From a virus, in the IMG/VR virus record IMGVR_UViG_3300037584_004279, positions 1 through 56,001 of that record: a stretch of DNA of 56,001 bases. One strand, written 5' to 3'. The translations under genes and the position numbers were made by a program. Within the stretch, counting starts at the first letter, position 1, and the number at the start of each line of letters is the position of its first letter. Shown here piece after piece: positions 9,872-31,500 of the stretch. The notes beneath the pieces are model-generated. The model was given only the letters and a program-made list of their open reading frames with translations. It had not been told where the DNA came from and searched no databases.

Positions 9872-9887
9872 GTGTCTTTGAAGACAC
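9872..9887. repeat. dispersed palindrome copy 1 (GTGTCTTTGAAGACAC)
   Basis: A 16-base near-perfect inverted repeat, arms GTGTCTT/AAGACAC around TG, in the non-coding region upstream of the early operon. Same family as the copies at 11788, 13335, 15867, 22912 and 43451. Confidence 0.8.
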
Positions 9888-10104: not shown

Positions 10105-10704
10105 ATGAATAATTTAAACCAAATCGAACAAGAGTTTTTATCTCATACTGGGGTACGAAATCATGTTCCGATTAACACAATTCAAAACCTATCTCAACAG
10201 ATAGGAGATGCGAAAAAAAGTAAGTTTGAAAAATCGTTGAAACTTGCTAAAATCGTAAACAAGGCCAATGACTGGTACAAATCAGAGGAAGCGAAAAACC
10301 TCATGAACACTGAGGGCGTAGACTGGGTAAATGTTGAAATATTTGCCGAGAGAGTTTTCGGTTGGAAAAAATCATATTTTTTCAAAATGGTTAAAGCGGG
10401 TAAATTACTCGAGGAAAATCCACAGGTTGTAACGAAATTCAAAAGAGAGTGTACACAGGCAGAGAACAATGGCGAAAGCACTTCAAGAAGCCTTGAAAGT
10501 TTACACAAATTCGCAAAGGCGGAACTAACAGAGGGGAATGCTCAAGTAATCGAAAGACCAAAAGCAATTTTAACCCTTAAAGGAACTGGACAATTTTCTC
10601 ATATAAAATTCGAAATTTTCCCAGATGAGGTTAAAACCTCAAACGAAGTTGCCCAGTTAACTGAGGTAATGAATTTGATTAACTTAAAAATTTCAGAGCT
10701 ATGA
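10105..10704 (+). CDS. unknown early protein, possible DNA-binding helix-turn-helix (199 aa)
   Basis: Not recognised. Residues about 65-110 (GVDWVNVEIFAERVFGWKKSYFF...) look helical and could form a helix-turn-helix of the kind that recognises a partner motif or DNA. The segment around residues 150-185 (ILTLKGTGQFSHIKFEIFP) is strand-rich and may be a second small domain. It is the first gene of the early operon, and its TGA overlaps the ATG of the amidoligase gene (ATGA at 10701-10704), so the two are coupled. Codons such as CGA, GCG and GAG are commoner here than in the late genes. Confidence 0.6.
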   Translation: MNNLNQIEQEFLSHTGVRNHVPINTIQNLSQQIGDAKKSKFEKSLKLAKIVNKANDWYKSEEAKNLMNTEGVDWVNVEIFAERVFGWKKSYFFKMVKAGKLLEENPQVVTKFKRECTQAENNGESTSRSLESLHKFAKAELTEGNAQVIERPKAILTLKGTGQFSHIKFEIFPDEVKTSNEVAQLTEVMNLINLKISEL

Positions 10705-11786
10705 TTGATACAGGAGTAAAATTTGAAATTACTGGGGACACCGCTCGAGGAGTAGTCCGAGGGTATCATGGAAGCCCTGAGCCTGAGTTCATCAACAAAG
10801 CTAAAAAGGTTGATTTGCGAGGGATAAAAACAACAAACATTGTTGAAACATATGAGGGCACACAATGGGATGACCCGAACGAAATTCAAAGTAAATTTAA
10901 TATCGGTTTTGAAATTGAAAAGCTAAGATTTCACAGAAGGGCGGTCATGGAATACCCTCTGTTTAAAGGTTTTGAAACTGATTCTAGTTGCGGAGTTGAA
11001 GCGGTTACTCATGTGCTTCCTCTGTTGCCAAAATCACTTTGGAGGACGAAAGTTTTTAACATGTTTGTTGAAGCTAAGAAAATTATCTCTGATGAGTTTA
11101 GCCCATCCGATAGAAGTTGCGGGGGTCATATCACTTTGAGTGTTCATGGTTTGAGCGGTCAAGAAGTTGCCGAGAAAATCAGAAAAAACTTCGGTATATT
11201 TTACGCTATTTTCAGAAAGAGATTACCCAATAATTATTGCAGTCGAAATCTTTCAATAATTCCTTTAGAATACGAAAGCAGTTTAAATAGTTTTTTAGGT
11301 GGTAGACACAACAAGTATTGCCCTGTAAAAATCATGGACCACGCTATCGAGTTGAGACTCCCGAGCAGAGTTCAGAGCGTCAAGCAGATGATGAGGAGGT
11401 ACGAGCTCTGTTATCATCTGTTAGACTTTTCAATTAATAATCCGAACGGAACTCACAAAAAATTTCTTAAGATTATTAGACCTGTACTCATGAGCATGTA
11501 CGAGGGGAACGCTGAAAAAGTGGACTGGTTAGAAACGCTTGCGGGACATTTTAGAAGAATGATTTTGACTCATAAATTTAACAGGTATGTCATCCCCTAC
11601 GTAGAGGGGTGGAAATGGATTAAAAGCCAGTACGCCAGCAGAGGTGCTTTTGTAAGGGGCAGAGAACTATTTCACCACGCTCATTTAACATGGTTTGACA
11701 CAGACTTAAAAAGGAACTACGATGTATTAGCTGATGAGTGGGAGGATAGAGTCCGAGGGTCTGAGGTTAATGTATATATGCCCTAG
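10701..11786 (+). CDS. amidoligase family enzyme (ATP-grasp-like COOH-NH2 ligase, 361 aa)
   Basis: Motifs match the Amidoligase_2 family: NIGFEIEKL (residues 67-75) for the first conserved strand with its glutamates; TDSSCGVEAVTHVLPLLP (93-110), the acidic-S..GVE-V...L element; DRSCGGHITLSVHG (137-150), the CG.H motif; then a KRLPNNYCSRN stretch and a late strand AIELRLPSRVQ that resembles the family's EFR motif. The family is predicted to join a carboxylate to an amine using ATP (Iyer and co-workers' analysis of amidoligases), often beside class II glutamine amidotransferase and gamma-glutamylcyclotransferase genes. A fused version of exactly those two domains lies at 13373-14497. Substrate unknown; peptide tagging of a protein or of a cell-wall or nucleotide substrate are possibilities. 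Confidence 0.75.
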   Translation: MIDTGVKFEITGDTARGVVRGYHGSPEPEFINKAKKVDLRGIKTTNIVETYEGTQWDDPNEIQSKFNIGFEIEKLRFHRRAVMEYPLFKGFETDSSCGVEAVTHVLPLLPKSLWRTKVFNMFVEAKKIISDEFSPSDRSCGGHITLSVHGLSGQEVAEKIRKNFGIFYAIFRKRLPNNYCSRNLSIIPLEYESSLNSFLGGRHNKYCPVKIMDHAIELRLPSRVQSVKQMMRRYELCYHLLDFSINNPNGTHKKFLKIIRPVLMSMYEGNAEKVDWLETLAGHFRRMILTHKFNRYVIPYVEGWKWIKSQYASRGAFVRGRELFHHAHLTWFDTDLKRNYDVLADEWEDRVRGSEVNVYMP

Positions 11787-11805
11787 AGTGTCTTTAAAGA
11801 CACTC
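11786..11805. repeat. dispersed palindrome copy 2 (20-bp perfect)
   Basis: GAGTGTCTTTAAAGACACTC is a perfect 20-bp palindrome that starts on the last base of the amidoligase stop codon. As RNA it would fold into a hairpin, but no T tract follows, so it is not a classical terminator. Confidence 0.85.
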
Positions 11806-11807
11806 TC

Positions 11808-11852
11808 AGAGCGTTTTGGAAATTTAGAGGGGTTCGACTCCCCTCACGCTCT
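11808..11852 (+). ncRNA. tRNA-like minihelix (acceptor stem plus T arm only)
   Basis: AGAGCGT (11808-11814) pairs perfectly with ACGCTCT (11846-11852), a 7-bp acceptor-like stem. Inside, GAGGGG/CCCCTC closes a 7-base TTCGACT loop at 11827-11845. This contains a perfect B-box match, GGTTCGACTCC, as in tRNA T arms. Only 12 bases separate the 5' acceptor strand from the T stem, so the D and anticodon arms are absent. It may be a tRNA remnant, a tRNA 3'-end capture, or a functional tRNA mimic. It sits between the amidoligase-end palindrome and a small membrane-protein gene. Confidence 0.55.
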
Positions 11853-11874
11853 CTAACTTTTTAAAACAATTATT

Positions 11875-12018
11875 ATGAAATACTTACTAAAATCAATTTG
11901 GAATGACACAAACCCACTTTTAGCATTGTTTATTTACAAGCTAATGTTGATGAGTTTTACAGGCATTCTTTTTATACTATATCAAACTATTTTTAATGGC
12001 GTAACAATTAACTTTTAA
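11875..12018 (+). CDS. small single-pass membrane protein (47 aa)
   Basis: A 47-codon ORF with ATG at 11875 after an AT-rich leader (ttattATG) identical in style to that of the next gene. It reads MKYLLKSIWNDTNPLLALFI... and continues with a hydrophobic stretch (about residues 15-42) containing LMSFTGILFILYQTI, long enough for one or two passes. No family recognised. Its position in the amidoligase module suggests a membrane-linked role for part of this module, but that is speculation. Confidence 0.6.
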   Translation: MKYLLKSIWNDTNPLLALFIYKLMLMSFTGILFILYQTIFNGVTINF

Positions 12019-12030
12019 ATTATTATTATT

Positions 12031-12432
12031 ATGAAATACTTAAACGATTACACAGAACAAGCACAAACAAACCTGTTCAAACAAAGAAAAGTTTTCTTTG
12101 CCTTCAGTAACGAACAATTCATTGAAGGCATGAGAAAACATTTCCTAACAAAGCAAGACCAAATCACTGGACTGGGCTCGGGTATGTATTGCCCAAGAAA
12201 TCAAGCGAAAAAAGTTTTAAAAGAACTTAACAAGATTTATACTAATGCAATAAAACAAGACATTGCAGAGAATGGAATCGAAAGAATTATCAAAAGAGAA
12301 CTTTCAAACCATGAATGTTATTACACTGGGGACACGATTGATTGTATAGAAAAATTAAAAGATTACCCCAATATAACAGAGGATTTAATTAATAAAATAT
12401 TTTACAAAAATTTAAAAAAATATCATGAATAG
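12031..12432 (+). CDS. conserved phage protein of unknown function (133 aa)
   Basis: A 133-residue protein with KVFFAFSNEQFIEGMRKH near residue 20 and GLGSGMYCPRNQAKKVL near 50, followed by helices. The order FFAFS.EQF.EG..K, then a loop LG.G.Y.P......., is one I associate with small hypothetical proteins of Bacteroidota phages and prophages; no biochemical role is known to me. One HECYYTGD segment could be a binding loop. Its stop overlaps the next gene's ATG region (12425-12432). Confidence 0.65.
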   Translation: MKYLNDYTEQAQTNLFKQRKVFFAFSNEQFIEGMRKHFLTKQDQITGLGSGMYCPRNQAKKVLKELNKIYTNAIKQDIAENGIERIIKRELSNHECYYTGDTIDCIEKLKDYPNITEDLINKIFYKNLKKYHE

Positions 12433-12568
12433 ACACAGAATAGAAAACAACATTTTACACCACGCAAAAGCGAGGAGAGAAAACAGGAGGTTAATGAGAA
12501 TTAAAAACCTGATGGATAAGTTTGGCCTAACAAGAGAACAAGCCGAAAAGAAAGTCGCCAATATTTAG
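12425..12568 (+). CDS. small basic protein (47 aa)
   Basis: A 47-codon ORF, MNRHRIENNILHHAKARREN..., ending LTREQAEKKVANI. Arg/Lys-rich and helical, with a C-terminal MDKFGLTREQAEKKV helix-turn-helix-like hairpin. It overlaps the upstream gene by 8 bases and ends nine bases before the first hammerhead ribozyme. No family recognised. Confidence 0.6.
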   Translation: MNRHRIENNILHHAKARRENRRLMRIKNLMDKFGLTREQAEKKVANI

Positions 12569-12576
12569 TTTAATTA

Positions 12577-12644
12577 GTTACTCTGATGAGCAACACAGAA
12601 AGGTGGCGAAACAGAGGGGATTAAAAACCCCCTTTGTCAGTAAC
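12577..12644 (+). ncRNA. hammerhead ribozyme 1 (type I topology)
   Basis: All conserved core bases are present. Stem I is GTTACT (12577-12582) with AGTAAC (12639-12644). Then come core CTGATGA (12583-12589), stem II (12590-12607, GC..CAC/GTGGC with an AA bulge), core GAAA (12608-12611), and stem III ACAGAGGGG (12611-12619) with CCCCTTTGT (12629-12637, one G.T pair). The predicted cleavage site is after C12638 of GTC. Both ends emerge from stem I, which makes it type I. It lies between the 12425-12568 gene and the HAD phosphatase gene. Self-cleavage would give the HAD mRNA a 5'-hydroxyl end 22 bases before its ATG. Confidence 0.85.
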
Positions 12645-12660
12645 AATTAAAATTAAAATT

Positions 12661-13182
12661 ATGAATCTAAAACACTTAAATAGAAAATACAATAAAGTAA
12701 TAATATTTGACTTAGATGGAACACTTGCCGATATAAGCAAAAGAAGGGAAGTGTCCAGTAAGCCAGATGGCAAGATTGATTGGGACAAATTCTATGACCC
12801 GAACAATATCAAACTTGACAGGCCAAATTACCCAGTGGTAGAAGTTGCGAAGCACCTATGGAGAGATTACAGGATAATAATATTTAGCGGTCGTTCAGCG
12901 GGAACGCAAGAAGCGACTGAGCAGTGGTTGGAGAAGTACAACATATTTTATGACGATATAAAGATGAGACCCACAAGCCAGTTGATGAAACCCGATGATG
13001 TTTTAAAAGAGGAATGGTTGGACGAACTCATAGAGCAAGAGCAAGAAATTACTGATGAATGGGACGACCCAAGTTTTGCTATGTACAGAATTATGTGCGT
13101 CTTTGATGACAGGGATAAAGTCGTTAAGATGTGGCGAAGGAGAGGATTAAAATGTTTTCAAGTTGCAGAAGGAAACTTTTAA
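12661..13182 (+). CDS. HAD-superfamily phosphatase, polynucleotide 3'-phosphatase-like (173 aa)
   Basis: Start taken as ATG 12661 (MNLKHLNRKY); the frame is open to a TTG at 12634 inside the ribozyme. Motif I is KVIIFDLDGTLADI with the catalytic DxD pair (D17, D19), motif II is IIIFSGRS, a conserved lysine lies downstream, and the acidic motif CVFDDRDKVV is near the C-terminus. The FSGR, KMRPTSQLMKPD and FDDR.KVV.MWR..G.....VA.G arrangement is that of the phosphatase domain of T4 Pnkp. It would remove 3'-phosphates (or cyclic phosphates) from nucleic acid ends. Hammerhead cleavage leaves a 2',3'-cyclic phosphate, and this gene lies between two hammerheads: a notable coincidence. Confidence 0.8.
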   Translation: MNLKHLNRKYNKVIIFDLDGTLADISKRREVSSKPDGKIDWDKFYDPNNIKLDRPNYPVVEVAKHLWRDYRIIIFSGRSAGTQEATEQWLEKYNIFYDDIKMRPTSQLMKPDDVLKEEWLDELIEQEQEITDEWDDPSFAMYRIMCVFDDRDKVVKMWRRRGLKCFQVAEGNF

Positions 13183-13201
13183 TGCGAAAGAATATTTCGC
13201 A
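13183..13201 (+). other. 7-bp hairpin directly after the HAD gene
   Basis: TGCGAAA/TTTCGCA with a 5-base loop, starting on the base after the stop codon and ending three bases before hammerhead 2. No T tract follows, so it is more likely an RNA structural or protective element than a terminator. Confidence 0.55.
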
Positions 13202-13204
13202 ATA

Positions 13205-13262
13205 GATAATCTGATGAGAGTTGTGTACTCGAAAGGGTGGATTTATTTCCGCCCTCATTATC
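13205..13262 (+). ncRNA. hammerhead ribozyme 2 (type I topology)
   Basis: A textbook fold. Stem I is GATAAT (13205-13210) with ATTATC (13257-13262). Core CTGATGA is at 13211-13217, stem II is GAGT/ACTC (13218-13221 with 13227-13230, loop TGTGT), and core GAAA is at 13231-13234. Stem III is AGGGTGG (13234-13240) with CCGCCCT (13249-13255, one T.G pair). The predicted cleavage site is after C13256 of CTC. Every core base matches the consensus. It sits after the HAD gene and before the promoter of the GATase-GGCT gene, so it would trim the 3' end of the upstream transcript. Confidence 0.9.
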
Positions 13263-13276
13263 AAGCAACAGAGGTA

Positions 13277-13308
13277 TTTGGATATGTCGATAGAATGTCG
13301 TACCTTTG
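13277..13308 (+). promoter_or_regulatory. strong promoter of the GATase-GGCT gene (TTTG-N20-TACCTTTG)
   Basis: TTTG at 13277-13280, exactly 20 bases, then TACCTTTG at 13301-13308: the best Bacteroidota-type promoter in the window. The start of transcription should fall near 13315, so the dispersed palindrome at 13335-13350 lies in the 5' leader of the resulting mRNA. Confidence 0.75.
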
Positions 13309-13334
13309 TTTAAATTATGTTTAACCTTAGGGCA

Positions 13335-13350
13335 GTGTCTTCAAAGACAC
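13335..13350. repeat. dispersed palindrome copy 3 (GTGTCTTCAAAGACAC)
   Basis: A 16-base inverted repeat, arms GTGTCTT/AAGACAC around CA, 22 bases before the ATG of the GATase-GGCT gene and just downstream of its promoter. The position would suit an operator or a leader hairpin. Confidence 0.8.
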
Positions 13351-13372
13351 CCCACTTAAATACTTAAAACAA

Positions 13373-14497
13373 ATGTGTATAATAATAATAAAACAAAAGC
13401 GAAACAAGATTTCGCAACAAGTCCTGAAAAACTCAGCGAGAAAAAACCCTCATGGATTGGGGATAGTATGGTTAGATACTTTCAAAGTATCTTATCATGA
13501 ATCAAAAGATTACAAAAAACTAAATACAACAAGACCCTTCATTGCTCATTTTAGATACGCAACGATTGGGAAAATATGTAAAGAAAACACGCATCCATTT
13601 AAATGCGGTAAGAAGCACAACGAACTGCTGATGATGAATGGAACTATTAGCGAGTTGGGAAACAAGAACATGACCGACACTCAAGATTTAGCCATCAAGC
13701 TAGGCAGAATTGAAAGACATATTTGGAAGCAAAAACTTGCTCAGTATTCTTTGGTTAGGTTTGCAACCATTAACACAAGAAACAGAACTTTCCAAATATA
13801 CAACAAGCACCTTTGGACACACAAAGATAAAGTTTGGTACTCTAAAGACAATGTGTTCACAACCTACAAAACACCTAGTTGGGTATCAAGATTTGCGGGT
13901 AATGTAGGAGTTGGTACCAGCACCCCAAGTGAATTTGTTTTTGAAAACCACAATGAATTTGAGGATGAGTTTGATTGGAAAAATGAAAGCAATGTTTGTG
14001 TTCAATGCACCAACGATTTGATGTATGATGAAAGCGAGTTATCGGAGAACAAATACTATTGTGTAAGTTGTGATAAAAGTTTTTCTAAAGAACAAGTAAT
14101 GGACTTTACAGAGTTTGATACACCGAAGTACGAGGGTAACAAAGAACTTGTCGCAGTGTATGGAACTTTGAAAAGAGGGTTTGGAAACCACCGAAACTTT
14201 TTGCAAGACCAAGAGTTTGTCGGTAGCGGAACGACTCAAGATAGGTACCCCTTAATTGTTAAGGGGTTACCATTTCTTTTGAATGAGAAAGGCAAAGGCC
14301 ATAATGTAGAAGTAGATGTGTTCAATGTAGATATGCCAACCTTAGAAAGTTTAGACGCTTTGGAAAACCACCCGACATGGTACAGACGAAAAGAAATAAA
14401 CATACTCTTGAATGGAAGTGCAAAAAAGTGTTGGATTTACTTTAACATAACAGAGCAATCAAAAGGAGAGAAGTATCACAAAACATTTAAATATTAG
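13373..14497 (+). CDS. class II glutamine amidotransferase - zinc ribbon - gamma-glutamylcyclotransferase fusion (374 aa)
   Basis: Three domains in one chain. Residues 1-170: Ntn-type glutamine amidotransferase with the catalytic cysteine right after the initiator Met (MCIIII), NPHGLGIVW (25-33), RPFIAHFRYATIG (54-66), NTHPF (72-76) and MMNGTI (87-92). Residues 205-240: zinc ribbon with CxxC pairs at C209/C212 and C230/C233. Residues 255-374: GGCT/AIG2 fold with VAVYGTLKRG (260-269) and the acidic LDALE (327-331), whose glutamate matches the catalytic acid. The first would release ammonia from glutamine, the last would handle gamma-glutamyl amides. With the amidoligase at 10701-11786 this suggests a pathway that makes or recycles an amide-linked product. 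Fusion of these two enzymes with a zinc ribbon is unusual. Own promoter. Confidence 0.85.
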   Translation: MCIIIIKQKRNKISQQVLKNSARKNPHGLGIVWLDTFKVSYHESKDYKKLNTTRPFIAHFRYATIGKICKENTHPFKCGKKHNELLMMNGTISELGNKNMTDTQDLAIKLGRIERHIWKQKLAQYSLVRFATINTRNRTFQIYNKHLWTHKDKVWYSKDNVFTTYKTPSWVSRFAGNVGVGTSTPSEFVFENHNEFEDEFDWKNESNVCVQCTNDLMYDESELSENKYYCVSCDKSFSKEQVMDFTEFDTPKYEGNKELVAVYGTLKRGFGNHRNFLQDQEFVGSGTTQDRYPLIVKGLPFLLNEKGKGHNVEVDVFNVDMPTLESLDALENHPTWYRRKEINILLNGSAKKCWIYFNITEQSKGEKYHKTFKY

Positions 14498-14502
14498 AAA
14501 TT

Positions 14503-14709
14503 ATGTCAAAAGTAAAATTAAACACACACGACAAAAAAACAAAAGTAATAGAAAAATGCAGAGAAAAAATAATTAACTGCGCTGATACTATTATAGATAA
14601 TTTAGAATTAATGCAATATGTTTATGATGAATTCGGTCATGACATTGATGTTCATGATGCTGAACGATTAGCTAACATAGTTTATTCACAAATAAAATTA
14701 AGAATGTAA
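14503..14709 (+). CDS. small helical protein of unknown function (68 aa)
   Basis: A 68-residue acidic/basic mixed helical protein (MSKVKLNTHDKKTKVIEKCR...) with a DEFGHDIDVHDAERLANIVYSQIK end. It begins five bases after the GATase-GGCT stop, so it is on the same transcript. No family recognised. Confidence 0.6.
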   Translation: MSKVKLNTHDKKTKVIEKCREKIINCADTIIDNLELMQYVYDEFGHDIDVHDAERLANIVYSQIKLRM

Positions 14710-15754: not shown

Positions 15755-16108
15755 ATGAATATATTTAAAACAGAAGCAGAAGCAGAAAAGCTTCGCCCAA
15801 AACCCGACAGACATTATATCAGCAGACTGCTAAGATATGCAGACGATGAAAAGCCCCTATCAATAAGTGTCTTTAAAGACACTGGGAGATTGTTAACCCG
15901 AGAGGAATATGAGAACTGGTTTAAAGATGTGCCACTGCACAAAGAATGTGTGGCAGTGATGTGCTACATTGGTGGACTAAAGATTGAAATGTTGGAAAGT
16001 GGAAATTGGTATTTAAATTATGGGGAAAAAGACCAAATGGAAACAAGGGATTTTAAAATGTTAGAGAGCGACTTGTATTACACAACCTATAAGATGTTAG
16101 GGGTATGA
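15755..16108 (+). CDS. unknown early protein containing an embedded palindrome copy (117 aa)
   Basis: Start placed at ATG 15755 (MNIFKTEAEAEKLRPKPDRH); an upstream GTG at 15710 is less likely. The centre YISRLLRYADDEKPLSISVF runs into KDTGRLL, where the dispersed palindrome encodes SVFKDT, followed by a WF..VPLHKECVAVMCYIGG strand-rich segment. No known family. It overlaps the DUF1599 gene by four bases (ATGA). Confidence 0.6.
   Translation: MNIFKTEAEAEKLRPKPDRHYISRLLRYADDEKPLSISVFKDTGRLLTREEYENWFKDVPLHKECVAVMCYIGGLKIEMLESGNWYLNYGEKDQMETRDFKMLESDLYYTTYKMLGV
15866..15883. repeat. dispersed palindrome copy 4, inside a coding sequence
   Basis: AGTGTCTTTAAAGACACT, a perfect 18-bp palindrome read in frame as SVFKDT within the 15755-16108 gene. 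Confidence 0.85.
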
Positions 16109-21797: not shown

Positions 21798-21963
21798 AAA
21801 AAAGAATTACTTAGAATATCTAAATGAAAATTATTTTAAAGAAAAAGGGTTTGTTCAAGTAAAAAGTAAATTAAATGAGTTAGAAATAGACCCTAAACTT
21901 TACCACAAAACATTGCCCACAAAAGTTGCGTTTCGTAGTGTGTGGGATTATTTTAAAACATGA
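21778..21963 (+). CDS. unknown small protein (61 aa)
   Basis: Start chosen at ATG 21778 to limit overlap with the previous gene; ATG 21745 or 21727 would add residues. The product contains NYLEYLNENYFKEKGFVQVK and ends LPTKVAFRSVWDYFKT. Its TGA overlaps the ATG of the SF2 helicase (21960-21963). No family recognised. Confidence 0.5.
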   Translation: MINSNNKKKNYLEYLNENYFKEKGFVQVKSKLNELEIDPKLYHKTLPTKVAFRSVWDYFKT

Positions 21964-25501: not shown

Positions 25502-28500
25502 TTATTTTGTTGCTTCTCTTATTTCTTTTCTAAGAGCTTTTTTTTCTTTTTCTATGTCTTCTAGTGCACCACCTTTACCATACAAATCTTCATACAAGTC
25601 AGGTAGAAGTTTTTTCATATCTGTTTTAGACATGGGTTTTCTTTTCTTAGGAGCATCTTGGTCTGGTCCTTCAATCTGATATTCAGAGTAGTTTAATAAT
25701 CTTAAAATATCTTTACCAACATCTCCGTCTTTACCTAAGTTTTCCATATTCTTAACAAACTTTTGTATTTGTATAGCGGGAATACCAGGGATAGATGCTA
25801 CTTCTGCAAGTAGTCTTTCTAATGCTTCTTGTTTTTTAATTGGGTCCTTAGTCTTTTCCCATCTATCATAAAGCTGCCATACTCTTGAGGTTACCATCAA
25901 CGGAGCAATATTTCTGAAATTTTTCCCCGCATAAGGCTTTCCTTGAACCTTATCCGCAAGATTATTAATAAGCTCTCCCATTATAAACAGTGCGTTTAGG
26001 TTTCCTATAAGTGCTGCTCTTATTAAATCTTCATCATCATCATCTCTAAAACCTCTCAGTATTCCTGGAAGCCCTAGTGCTACATATTGAAATAAAACAG
26101 GAGCAAATAAATGATAAGTAAGTAATGTTCTGAAATTTTCAGTCAAATTACCCTTACCTACTTTGCTATCCCAAGCTTTTGCTTTTCTGTATAAGTTTCT
26201 AGCACCTTGAATTTCTTTTCTTAAATACTGTTTTGGCGTAGTTAAGAACATATTCATACCTCTTACCCATGCAGAGCCTGTTTGGAAATAGTCTTTGTCT
26301 TGCAAGTCTTGAGACTGCTGAGTTCTTTTAGTATCTCTTTCAAATTTTTTAATTGCAATCTTAATAGCTTCTTTTTCTGTTTTTCCTTCTTTTAACGCTT
26401 GCTTTTTGTAATATATATAGTTAGGCATTCCTCCTAAGAAAATTGCCGCTCTATCACCAAATTTAGTAGGGTACATTACAAAGTTTACAAAATTATCATA
26501 ATATCTACCGCCTACAAACTTTACCATCTTTTTATCAGAATAAGCCTCAATAATTCTAGTGATAGATACTCTGTTTCTGTCTGTCATATAGGTAGAATTT
26601 TCACTTATTTCTTTCCAAGTTTTTCTTATTTTAGGAATATTTGTTAAACCATGCTTCAACCAATTTACATAACCTATATCATTCGCATAAGTTATCATAG
26701 AGGTAAGCTGCTTTAAAGTAATGGTTGGGTTGGCACCAATTCTTCCTACTAAGAAAAAGTTATTTAAAGTATTTATAAATGAATCAGCTACATTTGTCCT
26801 TACACCTTTGTTTGCAATTTTTCCAATCATGTTATCAATAAGCTCATTAACATAATCACCATGGATATTAGATATAGCGTCTTTAACTGCTGGTTCAGAA
26901 AACATTTTATTAATATCTCTAATTGTTTCACCATACGCAGCAAAGTATTCCATGTCTCTTAAATAAGTAGCCATAACATCTACAGCATTCATTATTTTAA
27001 TCTCTGCATTAGTATCTGTTCTAGCTTTTGTAGAGCTTGACCCTACAGAGTTGTTTATTGAAAAAGGATTTCCTAACATATCTGGTGGCTCACGCTCAAT
27101 ATTTTCCCTATATATCATACCAGAATAAAATTCATTATACGGCATATCCGTTCTAAACAAAGCTTTGTATGTTTTGTTATAGTGATTGTACAATGACGGA
27201 TAAAAATCATTCACTAACCAATCAGCAAATTGTTTTGCTTTGGGGTCAAGCTTATTTTCTATTTCATTTAAAATTCTTTTATAGTCTGGACCAAATGTTT
27301 TTTCAAAAGCTGCATCATTTGCTGGGTCTTTAGCAAGATTATATACATAAATTATTTGATTTTGAGATAAAAATTTTAAATTCAAATCTTTTGCTTTATC
27401 TAGCTTTGCTTTATTTTCTTTTGTTGGGTTAGATTCGTAATCTTTATATGCTTGGTTGTAAGCTTTTTCGTTTCTAATATATGTTGGTTCGTTAGGTAAA
27501 TTATTGTTTTTTCTAACCTCGCTTCTCCATTTTTTACCATACAATTTTTCAAAAAAATTAGCAAGAGTTAACTCATTCTGAATAGTTCTTTCTTTGAATA
27601 TAATACTAGATTCATCCACTCTTTCTGTAACCATTTCTTGCAATATACCTCCAAACATATCACCAGGAGTTTTTGAAATTAAATCCATCAATCCATCTAA
27701 CGCTTCTGCTTGATTAAAAAAAGCTTTGATTTTAGTATTGATTGTAGTAAAGAATTTTTTAATAACATTTTGTGTTTGTTCTTTTCTCTTTTTTAAATCT
27801 TTTACATCTTTAAGCTCTAATCTTAATTCTTGTTTAGCCTGAGGGTCAGAAAAATCTATTTTTTTTCCTGTTATTTGTCTAAAAACAATACCAATAGCTC
27901 CCGCATATTTTTTTGAAGCCTGAGTAAGTTCTTCTTTTAATTCAGACCTTCCTTCTTCTATCATTTGCTCAAGAGGTGTTGCTGCATTTGACAATGCTTT
28001 TGTTTTATTGATGTCATTATTTTCCATCAACAAAGAATTATTTAAATTGAGAAGTATTGTTAAATCAACCATTTCATTTAAGTCTGAATCTGTTTTAACA
28101 GTTTTTGCGTCTAACTCATTAATTCTTTCTAGCAGTTCTTTATTTGTGTTAAACACTACACCAACATCAACCCCTGGTTTTAAACGCCTAGAATTTATGC
28201 TTGCAATTCTTTTTCTCATTTCATTATCAATACCTTTAGCTTTGACTTTACCGCCTTCTGTTTTTTGATACTTGTCTGTAAGAATATTATTGATTTGTTT
28301 TTCTAATTTTACATTTACCTTTTGGTTTACTACTTGTTGTATTTCTTTAAATATTTTATCAATATTATTTTCATTAGCTCTTTGTACTTTTCTGGTTATC
28401 TTTAAAACCTCTGGCTTGCTGTATACATCTGCTGGTAAAGATTCTTTTAAGAATTTTATAACAGCTTTTTTTGCGTCTTGTAAAGCTTTTCTTCCTTGTG

Positions 28501-31500
28501 CTCTTTTAGTTATTTTATTTTCAGCTTCATTTAAAGCTTGCATAACCACATTACTTTCATTAACTACTTTAGGTTGTTGAACTTCTGGCTCTACACCTCC
28601 AGATTTTATAGGTAGTTGTAGTACAAATGTTGGAGCTCCAAAAGCAGATTTGCCCTTTGGTTTCACCCTAACCTTAAAAGAAATTGTTCCAGAACCAGCA
28701 GCTTTTGTCGTTTCGGGAATTATTCGAGCTTCTTGTATATCTAAGTCTACATCTACATCTTCATCAATAAGTCCATCTTCTATGAGTTGTTCTCTAAGCT
28801 CTTGTTCTCTATCACTAAATTCAGTTTCTCCAACAGGAACCGTGGCTTTTTTTATTTTTCTACCAGAATTATTCTTTTGCCCTACATATTCTACTTTTTT
28901 TACACCTGTAGTTTGTTCATCACCCTCTACTGTTTCATCGGTTACAACCTGTTTGTAGGTAAAAACATCACCTTTTTGGGATTTCCTAGTAAATTCAATA
29001 TCTGTTTCTCCTTCTTCAAATATTTTAGTTTCAGCCTCCTCAGTTACTTCCGTGTCTACATCTGATTCAGTTTGCTCTTGCTCCATCTTCTTTTTCATTT
29101 CCTCAACTTCTTGAAAAAACTGGTCGGGGTTTGACTTGTAAAGGTTGTCTGCATAATCCTCACCCTTTTCATCCTTAAGCCTTCTCAATGCGTCAAAGTC
29201 TTTTGAAACTCTTGATTCACGTTGCTCTTGCTCCATTTTCTTTTTCATGTTATCAAACTCTTCTTGAGTATAAACATCGCTATCTTTTTCAGTTGTAATT
29301 CTTTCTATTACTTGTTCATCAGTAATAGCTTGCGGGGTTTGTTCTAACTCTGGCTCGACTTCGGAGTCAACTTGTTTATTAGCATCTACTTTTTTTCTAA
29401 TATTTTCTCTTATACCCTCTATTTCATTATCTATTTCTGCATGAAAAGCTTTATCTAGTTTCTTTTTCTTTTGCTCAAGTCTGTTTATTTCATTTAAATC
29501 TTGCATAACTTCAAGACCCGTTTGTGAAGATAAATTGGTAGGTATGCTGTTTATACTATTTCTATATACTTCAATGTCAGATAGAATTTTGTTTACTTGT
29601 TGTTCCGTATATAAACCTTTAGCAACTTGACTGTTTAATAATTCAGTAGTTTTATCTACATCTTCAGCCAATATGGATAATAACTGAAGCTTATCAGTAC
29701 CATCTACACCACCTCCTCTACCTGTAGCTTTACTAAAAACATCACCACCAAAAGGCATAAGAAATCCAGCAGCGTATGATAATATAGAAGTGTTTAAAAA
29801 TTCTTGAAGTGAAATTGTATCTCTTATTATTTCTTTTCCCGCTACTTTATTAATATTAGGAGCAACAACAAAAGCTTCTCCGCCTTGTTGTACGTTTTCT
29901 TGAAACATTTCTGCTAAACCTTGTTTATTATAAAACAACACTTTACCTAAATATTTTTTAGCTACTTCTTGAAAACCTTGTGGCCCCTTTGAAACATAAG
30001 CATCCAACATTTCTTTACTTATTTTTTTAGTAGCTTCTTTACCGAATATTTTATTCATAGCATACATTTGTGGAGATAGTGGGGCTGTTAATGCACCCAA
30101 CGTAAATCCTTGTTTTGCAGCCATGGCAGAAATTTCATCTGCTTTTTCTACAGACAACCCTTGTTCTAAAGCTCTTGTTTTTGTCTCAGCATATAAATTA
30201 GTGGAAAACAAAGTTCCTTGTCCTATTATAATACCAGACATGTCTCTTTTCATAGGTATTTTTGCAAGCAAATCCCCAGCTTTTTTAACGCCACCTCCTA
30301 CATTTGAAGTCAGCGAAGCACCTCCTTTTAAAAGAGTTGATGCGTTTCTTTGAACTGCCAACTGTAATAACATATCTGATAAAACACCTGTTGTTTCCAC
30401 AGTTAAGCCGATTCCGCTAAATGAATAAGTATCTTTACCTTCAAGCTTCGCTGCTTGTGTAATAGACTTATATTCTCCTGGACTTAAAACGTGAGTTACT
30501 CTAAGTTTATGAGCTGTAGAATATACTTGTCCCGTATCATCTACTAAATATTTAACACCATCTACTTCCACCTCTTTTCCATTAGCTAAAACATATCGCA
30601 TCAAATCAGTCCTGTTAAGCTTAGTTTCAGCAGAGTTCATTCTAACTTCATCAGCAACACCATCAAGGCCTACAAAATTATAAAACCCCTCTGATAAGGT
30701 GTCTATTCTATCGTTTAATGCACGAGCTCCTTGGGTAACAGAATCTACAAACAAATCCCCAGCTACATCCCAATTCCATATTGTATCTTTTTTTCTTTCT
30801 TGCCATAGTTCTTGATTTTTAGCATCTTGTGCTTTTAATTTTTGAACATATCTTGGAAATTTTTCTTGTATAAATTCTTTTACTTTTTCAGTATCCACAC
30901 CTGATGAATAACTTAATTCTACACCATCTAAACTTGGCATACTGCCATCATTTTCTTCTTGGTATTTTAATTTTTGAAAGTCCACATTTCTTTCTACTTG
31001 ATTATTTAAATAATTGTTTAAATAAGTAAACAGCAATCTTTCTGCTGCAAGCGAAGGATTAAAATTACCCGATATATCATACTCTCTTCCATCAAGCGAA
31101 ATAGTTTCATCCTCTAAATATTTTTTAAATTGTTTTTTATATCCTTGTTCTGATAAATATCCATCAAAATCTTTTATATTTATTTTTCCTTTAGGGCCGT
31201 CAATTTTTTTTAAATCATCAACACCGTACATTTCATCTATACTTATTTCATCAAGATTCATTTTGACTTGATTTAAGTTATCATCTAATCCTGAGCTTTC
31301 TTCATAAGCAAAAACTTTATTTAATCTTTTATTTGTATAAGAGTCTCTTATTTCCTTTGGTGTTCTTCTGGTTACGCTTTGTATTTTTTTAAGCATAACT
31401 TCATCACCATCAACAAAAGCTTTTTTTATATCCTCTTCAGTTATTAAATTTTTCTCTAATGCTTTTTGAATATTAGGGTCTAAAGTTATCTTTGATAAAA

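Follow-up and report, generated by a model that had tools for sequence, protein, structure and literature searches.

The window analysed here is a 56,001-nucleotide stretch of viral DNA (IMG/VR record IMGVR_UViG_3300037584_004279). The phage is known from environmental DNA and belongs to a dsDNA family that probably infects Bacteroidota. A host in this phylum is suggested by its gene content and by distant relatives among Flavobacterium, Polaribacter and Cellulophaga phages. Positions 11800-14600 match no named phage by DNA similarity.

The region of interest (Table 1) lies in one run of genes, which would be an early operon judging from its replication genes. The region opens with the gene for a 361-aa protein that has no Pfam or PHROG match. 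(In phage C75C1 a neighbour of the GGACT gene is annotated as an amidoligase, a possible hint for the 361-aa protein.) Further on stands a gene related to polynucleotide 3'-phosphatases, whose product matches PF25109 (2.3e-29), phrog_505 (1.7e-37) and T4 polynucleotide kinase (1ltq, 3e-11). This gene sits between the predicted cuts of two hammerhead ribozymes, HHR1 and HHR2, which occupy gene borders on the same strand. Such elements are absent from the majority of the window's gene borders. The first-pass annotation described HHR1 and overlooked HHR2.

Table 1. Positions of genes and RNA elements in and around the two hammerheads of the window.
Feature	Positions	Strand	Predicted cut	Basis or remark
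361-aa gene	10701..11786	+		3' boundary is the commonest hammerhead slot of the family
Hairpin AGUGUCUUUAAAGACACU	11787..11804	+		Right behind the 361-aa gene; core precedes many type III hammerheads
tRNA-like minihelix	11809..11851	+		In a type III hammerhead slot; covariation over 12 elements
47-aa ORF	11875..12018	+		Begins 23 nt past the tRNA-like element; start confirmed
47-aa ORF	12425..12568	+		Ends 8 nt 5' of HHR1; ATG and TAG confirmed
Outer stem I extension, 5' arm UUUAAUU	12569..12575	+		MFE fold of 12569-12652; bulged A12576 is next
HHR1, type I hammerhead ribozyme	12577..12644	+	12638/12639	Core sequence, leave-out covariance model
Outer stem I extension, 3' arm AAUUAAA	12645..12651	+		MFE fold; within the leader of the HAD gene
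HAD-type polynucleotide 3'-phosphatase-like gene	12661..13182	+		PF25109; PNKP phosphatase domain without kinase
HHR2, type I hammerhead, triplet CUC	13205..13262	+	13256/13257	Scan and leave-out covariance model
Candidate Bacteroidota-type promoter TTTG-N20-TACCTTTG	13277..13308	+		Between HHR2 and the 374-aa gene
Hairpin GUGUCUUCAAAGACAC	13335..13350	+		5' of the 374-aa gene
374-aa gene, GATase-II-like N part and GGACT domain	13373..14497	+		PF06094, 1.5e-21; next gene after HHR2

The candidate promoter resembles a Bacteroidota housekeeping promoter, which is suggestive only. A scan of the window for the motif matched 4 times on one strand and 7 times on the other, where shuffles gave about 3. 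Since the matches are hardly commoner than in shuffles, they are not counted as evidence.

Structure of the Two Hammerheads

HHR1 contains the complete hammerhead core: C3U4G5A6N7G8A9 (as CTGATGA) and G12A13A14 (as GAA), with the A15.1-U16.1 pair and a cleavage triplet of the NUH type, GUC. Its letters run GTTACT, CTGATGA, stem II, GAA, A15.1, C, AGAGGGG..CCCC, C, TTTG, U16.1, C17 and AGTAAC. Stem II (GC, AA, CAC, AGAAAG, GTG, GC) consists of GC and CAC/GUG pairing around an AA bulge. Three helices form, with six pairs in stem I and nine in stem III, and 22 bases (12639-12660) would separate the cut from the ATG at 12661. The core bases, triplet, helices, pair counts and 22-base distance stand as the first-pass annotation described them; it gave 12639 for the cut. 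The type I topology of HHR1 is likewise borne out, both by covariation among 17 type I sequences and by the MFE fold with flanks. HHR2 has the same CTGATGA and GAA, and its triplet is also NUH.

A custom scan for type I hammerheads found HHR1 and HHR2 in the window and nothing in shuffles; descriptor and scan found no type II or III hammerhead in the window. A type I covariance model was also trained on other phages, leaving out the window and its relatives L001 and L002. It scored HHR1 at 35.1 bits (E 5e-8) and HHR2 at 49.7 bits (E 2e-12), while the best non-hammerhead place reached 12.7 bits (E 0.31); the E-values of such custom models are rough.

Changes that would destroy the core are absent from the relatives. 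HHR1 is the same in L001; in L002 its sole differences are position 7 (U to C) and H17 (GUC to GUA), both of which are tolerant positions. HHR2 is altered in L002 only in the stem III loop, and in L001 a stem III U-G becomes U-A.

The covariance search proposed for HHR1 turned out differently depending on the model. The custom model recognised it, as described above, but Rfam scans of the window at gathering and E-value thresholds gave no hammerhead match, and the gathering cut-off of RF00163, Hammerhead_1 (34), was not reached anywhere in the window. The elements resemble RF00163 in core, triplet, three helices and the opening at stem I. They differ in that stem I is short (6 bp) and, in most copies, stem II has 4 bp and a UNNNU loop, and the Rfam model misses them. 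Similarly, RF00008 gives a textbook type III relative (L042) only 23.8 bits against a cut-off of 48.5. Because the models are narrow and also miss canonical relatives, the Rfam result is not taken as a refutation. Annotation based on Rfam undercounts such phage hammerheads.

Folding depends on context. Given flanks of 7-8 nt (12569-12652), the MFE fold of HHR1 is exactly the hammerhead, at -22.6 kcal/mol (z -4.0). The flanks add seven further stem I pairs (12569-12575 with 12645-12651) past the bulged A12576. Both outer arms are unvaried in L001 and L002, so that covariation provides no evidence for this outer pairing. For the bare 68-mer, a misfold is favoured over the hammerhead by 2.2 kcal/mol. 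In HHR2, a misfold is better by 0.5 kcal/mol, and in larger contexts (13190-13280 and 13150-13300) the MFE fold is not the full hammerhead. Candidates for a tertiary contact between stems I and II of HHR1 are the bulged A12576 and the AA bulge or AGAAAG loop; in other hammerheads the UNNNU loop is a candidate partner.

Hammerheads in Related Phages

Related phages were collected by recruiting 108 further IMG/VR loci through the primase and the 374-aa protein, which with L001, L002 and the window made 111 sequences. A strict descriptor for hammerhead types I, II and III was applied to all of them. The window and the 110 related loci together contain 90 hammerheads, duplicates counted (65 type III and 25 type I). 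Unique copies number 57 for type III and 17 for type I, the HHR1 sequence of the window being that of L001. All 90 lie on the plus strand and none on the minus strand. The same descriptor found no match in about 1.7 Mb of Markov shuffles.

Pairing is maintained through compensating changes. In the type III helices 795/795 cells are paired, with 208 double changes against 60 in shuffled data. In the type I stems 97.2% of cells are paired and the covariation score is 0.93, compared with 0.21. Double changes occur among the 17 type I sequences at 13 of 15 pairs, including all six of stem I.

Hammerheads were detected in 28 of 42 whole records, of which 23 have strong type III matches (E < 1e-10) and five have type I only. 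A record can hold up to four of each type; many relatives carry several copies and several family genomes carry only one. The custom models detected none in the other 14 records. These records, along with the empty slots described below, indicate that the function is not essential.

A second set of 120 viral loci was selected solely by the type III core pattern, and some of these belong to the same family. Here 150/164 hammerheads lie 10-60 nt 5' of an ATG ORF, all 40 of 40 multi-copy loci are one-stranded, and a hairpin is present at 104/123 type III copies.

Hairpins and Spacing

Type III copies come directly after a GC-rich hairpin. The hairpin adjoins stem III in most of the 57 unique copies, with a mean z of -3.2 and 81% of values below -2. 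In L005, L010 and L033, the hairpin core GTGTCTTCAAAGACAC is itself stem III of a type I copy. Because the hairpin precedes the type III hammerhead and is stem III of the type I hammerhead, cutting in either topology would leave a hairpin at the 3' end of the upstream product.

The distance to the next ATG is short as well. Its median is 23 nt for type III and 19 nt for type I, and most copies lie 14-28 nt from the next ATG ORF. With this spacing, the 5' end of the downstream product would lie only a little ahead of a start codon.

The perfect hairpin or palindrome GTGTCTTTAAAGACAC, sometimes with one change, recurs in the window at 9872, 11788, 13335, 15867, 22912 and 43451. The copies at 15867 and 22912 are apparently intragenic, so it may have a role at the DNA level or a separate role in RNA.

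The Slot behind the 361-aa Gene

Homologues of the 361-aa gene are followed by 26 hammerhead copies, and the ORFs downstream of these fall into many unrelated clusters. With the upstream gene kept and the downstream genes variable, the position of the hammerheads is conserved with respect to the upstream gene.

The slot can be followed through 46 distinct loci with the 361-aa gene. A hammerhead stands directly behind the gene in 36 of them, 30 with the canonical core and six (L008, L010, L014, L017, L018 and L025) with variants read by eye. In the variants, stem II has U.U (CTGATGATTGC..GCATGAAAC) in place of its usual G10.1-C11.1 pair, or an extra U is present; they are otherwise intact. In three loci (the window, L004 and L032) the slot holds the same hairpin and, behind it, a tRNA-like minihelix in place of a hammerhead, and L053 has a weaker element of similar kind. 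Nothing was recognised in the slot of the remaining six. The slot holds hammerheads across deeply diverged 361-aa proteins. In a tree of these proteins the clade of the window is one well supported group among hammerhead-bearing lineages, a placement with moderate support (94/90) in a tree whose pattern-selected loci are biased towards hammerheads.

The minihelix of the window has 7-nt acceptor arms, a 12-nt linker with GG, and a T-arm with a TTCGACT loop. It lacks a D stem, an anticodon arm and an encoded CCA. ARAGORN found no tRNA in the window, and with its D and anticodon arms absent the element does not qualify as a tRNA gene. L001 and L002 likewise have an ORF of 47 aa, spaced 22-23 nt behind their tRNA-like element.

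Twelve such elements could be compared. They keep a coaxial acceptor and T-arm helix with a TTCRANY loop, and they do so through covariation: 137/144 cells are paired and double changes number 59, where shuffles reached at most 28. Two matches in L010 and L023 resemble fragments of complete tRNAs and are not part of this set. A stricter minihelix descriptor found 13 matches, all of them on the plus strand, and no match in shuffles; among the 13, two resemble pieces of complete tRNAs. The elements occupy gene borders and frequently have the GTGTCTTTAAAGACAC hairpin in front of them; their linker of 10-12 nt usually contains GG.

Besides the one in the window, minihelices are found at L013:7139, L039:1644, L040:2685, L045:2530, L048:2944, L058:1625, L087:3186, L089:1904 and L102:1395. 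Just past the 374-aa gene, L019, L020 and L021 have longer tRNA-like stretches with the acceptor CATCGGG/CCCGATG and a T-arm. These are possibly degenerate full tRNAs at another gene border.

In tRNA punctuation and in T-arm minihelices, an acceptor and T-arm helix of tRNA length is cut by RNase P or RNase Z. As in that system, the present helix marks a border in polycistronic RNA. It differs in lacking the D stem and anticodon arm and in filling the ribozyme slot of its relatives, and it is a putative substrate of RNase P or RNase Z.

Proposed Mechanism

Intact cores, covariation, restriction to one strand, fixed spacing, the upstream hairpin and replacement by a tRNA-like element together point to the cutting of transcripts at gene borders, which would protect the 3' end of the upstream RNA and define the 5' end of the downstream one. 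HHR1 and HHR2 are thus probably functional type I hammerheads that belong to a set of interchangeable cis-cleaving elements, which mark gene borders in the early operons of this phage family.

While the polycistronic RNA is being made, each element would cut itself just past the upstream gene. The upstream mRNA would then end in a stable hairpin, which in type I is stem III of the hammerhead itself and in type III the separate hairpin directly in front of it. The downstream mRNA would start with a 5'-hydroxyl and a short A/U-rich stretch of about 20 nt, followed by the start codon. At 11809-11851, host tRNA enzymes (RNase P and/or RNase Z) would make the cut at the minihelix. The cuts of HHR1 and HHR2 would release a single-gene RNA of 618 nt (12639-13256) encoding the phosphatase. 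The earlier proposal that HHR1 cuts a polycistronic RNA upstream of the HAD gene is supported as a reading of the sequence. Any benefit to the phage would probably be that the stability and translation of each gene's mRNA can be controlled separately.

The elements may also be seen more generally, as a modular punctuation code. In such a code, a 3'-protective hairpin would be followed by one of several unrelated cutting devices, be it a hammerhead of type I or III or a minimal tRNA-like minihelix that host tRNA enzymes would cut. Exchange of these devices in place at a given gene border, in the course of evolution, would leave each early mRNA with defined ends. The case for this wider generalisation is evenly balanced.

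Comparison with Known Systems

Clusters of hammerheads have been described in prophages, at the Agrobacterium ardA locus and in Azorhizobium and Clostridium scindens (Perreault et al. 2011, PMC3088659). When arranged in tandem, such hammerheads cut long polycistronic transcripts both in vitro and in E. coli. As in the present family, several hammerheads of different types lie between phage genes on one transcript, and they were proposed to cut long RNAs into mRNAs of operon or gene length (PMC3088659). The dsDNA phage family described here, probably of Bacteroidota, differs in its conserved slot behind a conserved upstream gene, its dedicated upstream hairpin and, in one lineage, the tRNA-like replacement.

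Theta ribozymes occur in gut Caudoviricetes, whose hosts include Bacteroidota, and are proposed to process phage transcripts (PMC10879173). They too are self-cleaving phage RNAs with a proposed role as transcript processors. Their fold, however, is HDV-like and they lie at the 3' trailers of real tRNAs, whereas the present elements are hammerheads at mRNA borders.

Alternative Explanations

Switches or insulators. RiboJ-type insulators place a hammerhead and a hairpin just before the translation start and standardise the 5' end of the mRNA. The phage hammerheads might similarly act, in the main, within the 5' UTR as regulated switches or as insulators for the gene that follows, whether RiboJ-like or controlled by a ligand or salt, with the upstream 3' end as a by-product. 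The tight spacing of most copies to the next ATG fits this idea, as does the outer extension of stem I in HHR1, one arm of which is part of the leader. In haloviruses HF1 and HF2, moreover, a hammerhead variant lies 13 nt 5' of a helicase start codon (PMC3088659). Yet it is the upstream gene that is conserved, while the downstream genes are diverse and mostly non-orthologous. Unlike in RiboJ, these natural elements have the hairpin on the upstream side and are repeated through the operon. HHR2 is 110 nt from the next ATG, possibly with a promoter in between, and no conserved extra ligand-sensing domain was seen. Control of the downstream gene as the main function is therefore unlikely.

Hitchhiking. 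The hammerheads could be passengers of mobile cassettes of small genes, without any role for the phage beyond moving with their ORFs. The downstream ORFs are indeed short and variable, and L001 has an extra ORF after HHR1. This idea, which appears quite improbable, does not fit a slot that keeps its hammerhead across deeply diverged 361-aa proteins and in which a non-homologous tRNA-like element can substitute in place. In the copies found, moreover, the helices are fully paired and the cores intact, which implies selection on cleavage.

RNA circles. Pairs of hammerheads might instead excise RNAs that are ligated into circles, as in retrozymes, here a 618-nt circle coding for the phosphatase. 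HHR1 and HHR2 do lie on either side of one gene with the same orientation, and their cuts would give the intervening fragment 5'-OH and 2',3'-cyclic phosphate ends. There is little to recommend the idea given the family genomes with a single hammerhead, and the copies at gene borders have varied genes between them. In similar arrays, neither circular nor spliced products turned up when Perreault et al. sought them (PMC3088659).

Coupling to the phosphatase. The first-pass annotation laid emphasis on the 3'-phosphatase, and the enzyme could in principle heal the cyclic-phosphate ends that a hammerhead makes. The gene does lie between both ribozymes and is of the PNKP phosphatase family. Across the 42 whole records, however, HAD_PNKP (PF25109) is present in three, namely the window and its two nearest relatives, against 28 with hammerheads. 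In L001, an unrelated 48-aa ORF is inserted between an identical HHR1 and the HAD gene. The link is rejected by this co-occurrence, and the proximity is incidental; a functional coupling is very improbable.

Inactivity. That the motif is hammerhead-like in fold but inactive or decaying in this phage is equally hard to credit, for all the misfolds that compete in the bare sequences and the unusual stem II of HHR1 with two outer pairs and an AA bulge, given that the relatives show permitted changes only and HHR1 with its flanks folds as a hammerhead.

Significance

The role of bacterial and phage hammerheads is a long-standing open question (PMC6155905, PMC3088659). That clustered phage hammerheads cut long RNAs was already proposed in 2011 (PMC3088659), and the cutting of transcripts at gene borders, as favoured here, extends that proposal. 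The new points are that the slots are syntenic, that a hairpin module goes with them and that a tRNA-like element can replace the ribozyme. In the open-access journal papers searched, no prior description in Bacteroidota phages or Patescibacteria was found.

The same type III core is seen in 64 prokaryote genome stretches (L231-L294, for example L238, L250, L261, L262, L285, L288 and L293), mostly from MAGs of Patescibacteria (CPR). Several of these have 2-4 copies on the same strand within 8 kb, and a hairpin lies just 5' of 62/85 type III copies. The copies may belong to prophages, misbinned phages or host genes.

Hammerheads are also present in two named phages. Cellulophaga phage phi18:3 (KC821620.1) has one at 21904-21958 on the minus strand (E 6e-11). 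Flavobacterium phage elemoE_10-3D (MT497078.1) has one at 28915-28965, also on the minus strand (E 3.5e-11), as well as a type I-like copy at 27095-27152 (minus strand) with a poorly paired stem II. In the features shown for the two phages, the hammerheads are absent from the annotation. Since both phages are cultured and their hosts recorded (Cellulophaga baltica #18 for phi18:3, Flavobacterium sp. BAL314 for elemoE), the question is directly testable in infected cells.

One slot can be traced across diverged phages in which the hairpin and the spacing are kept, the downstream gene is not, and the ribozyme can be replaced. The kept hairpin and spacing, the variable downstream gene and the tRNA-like substitution favour transcript cutting over the other ideas.
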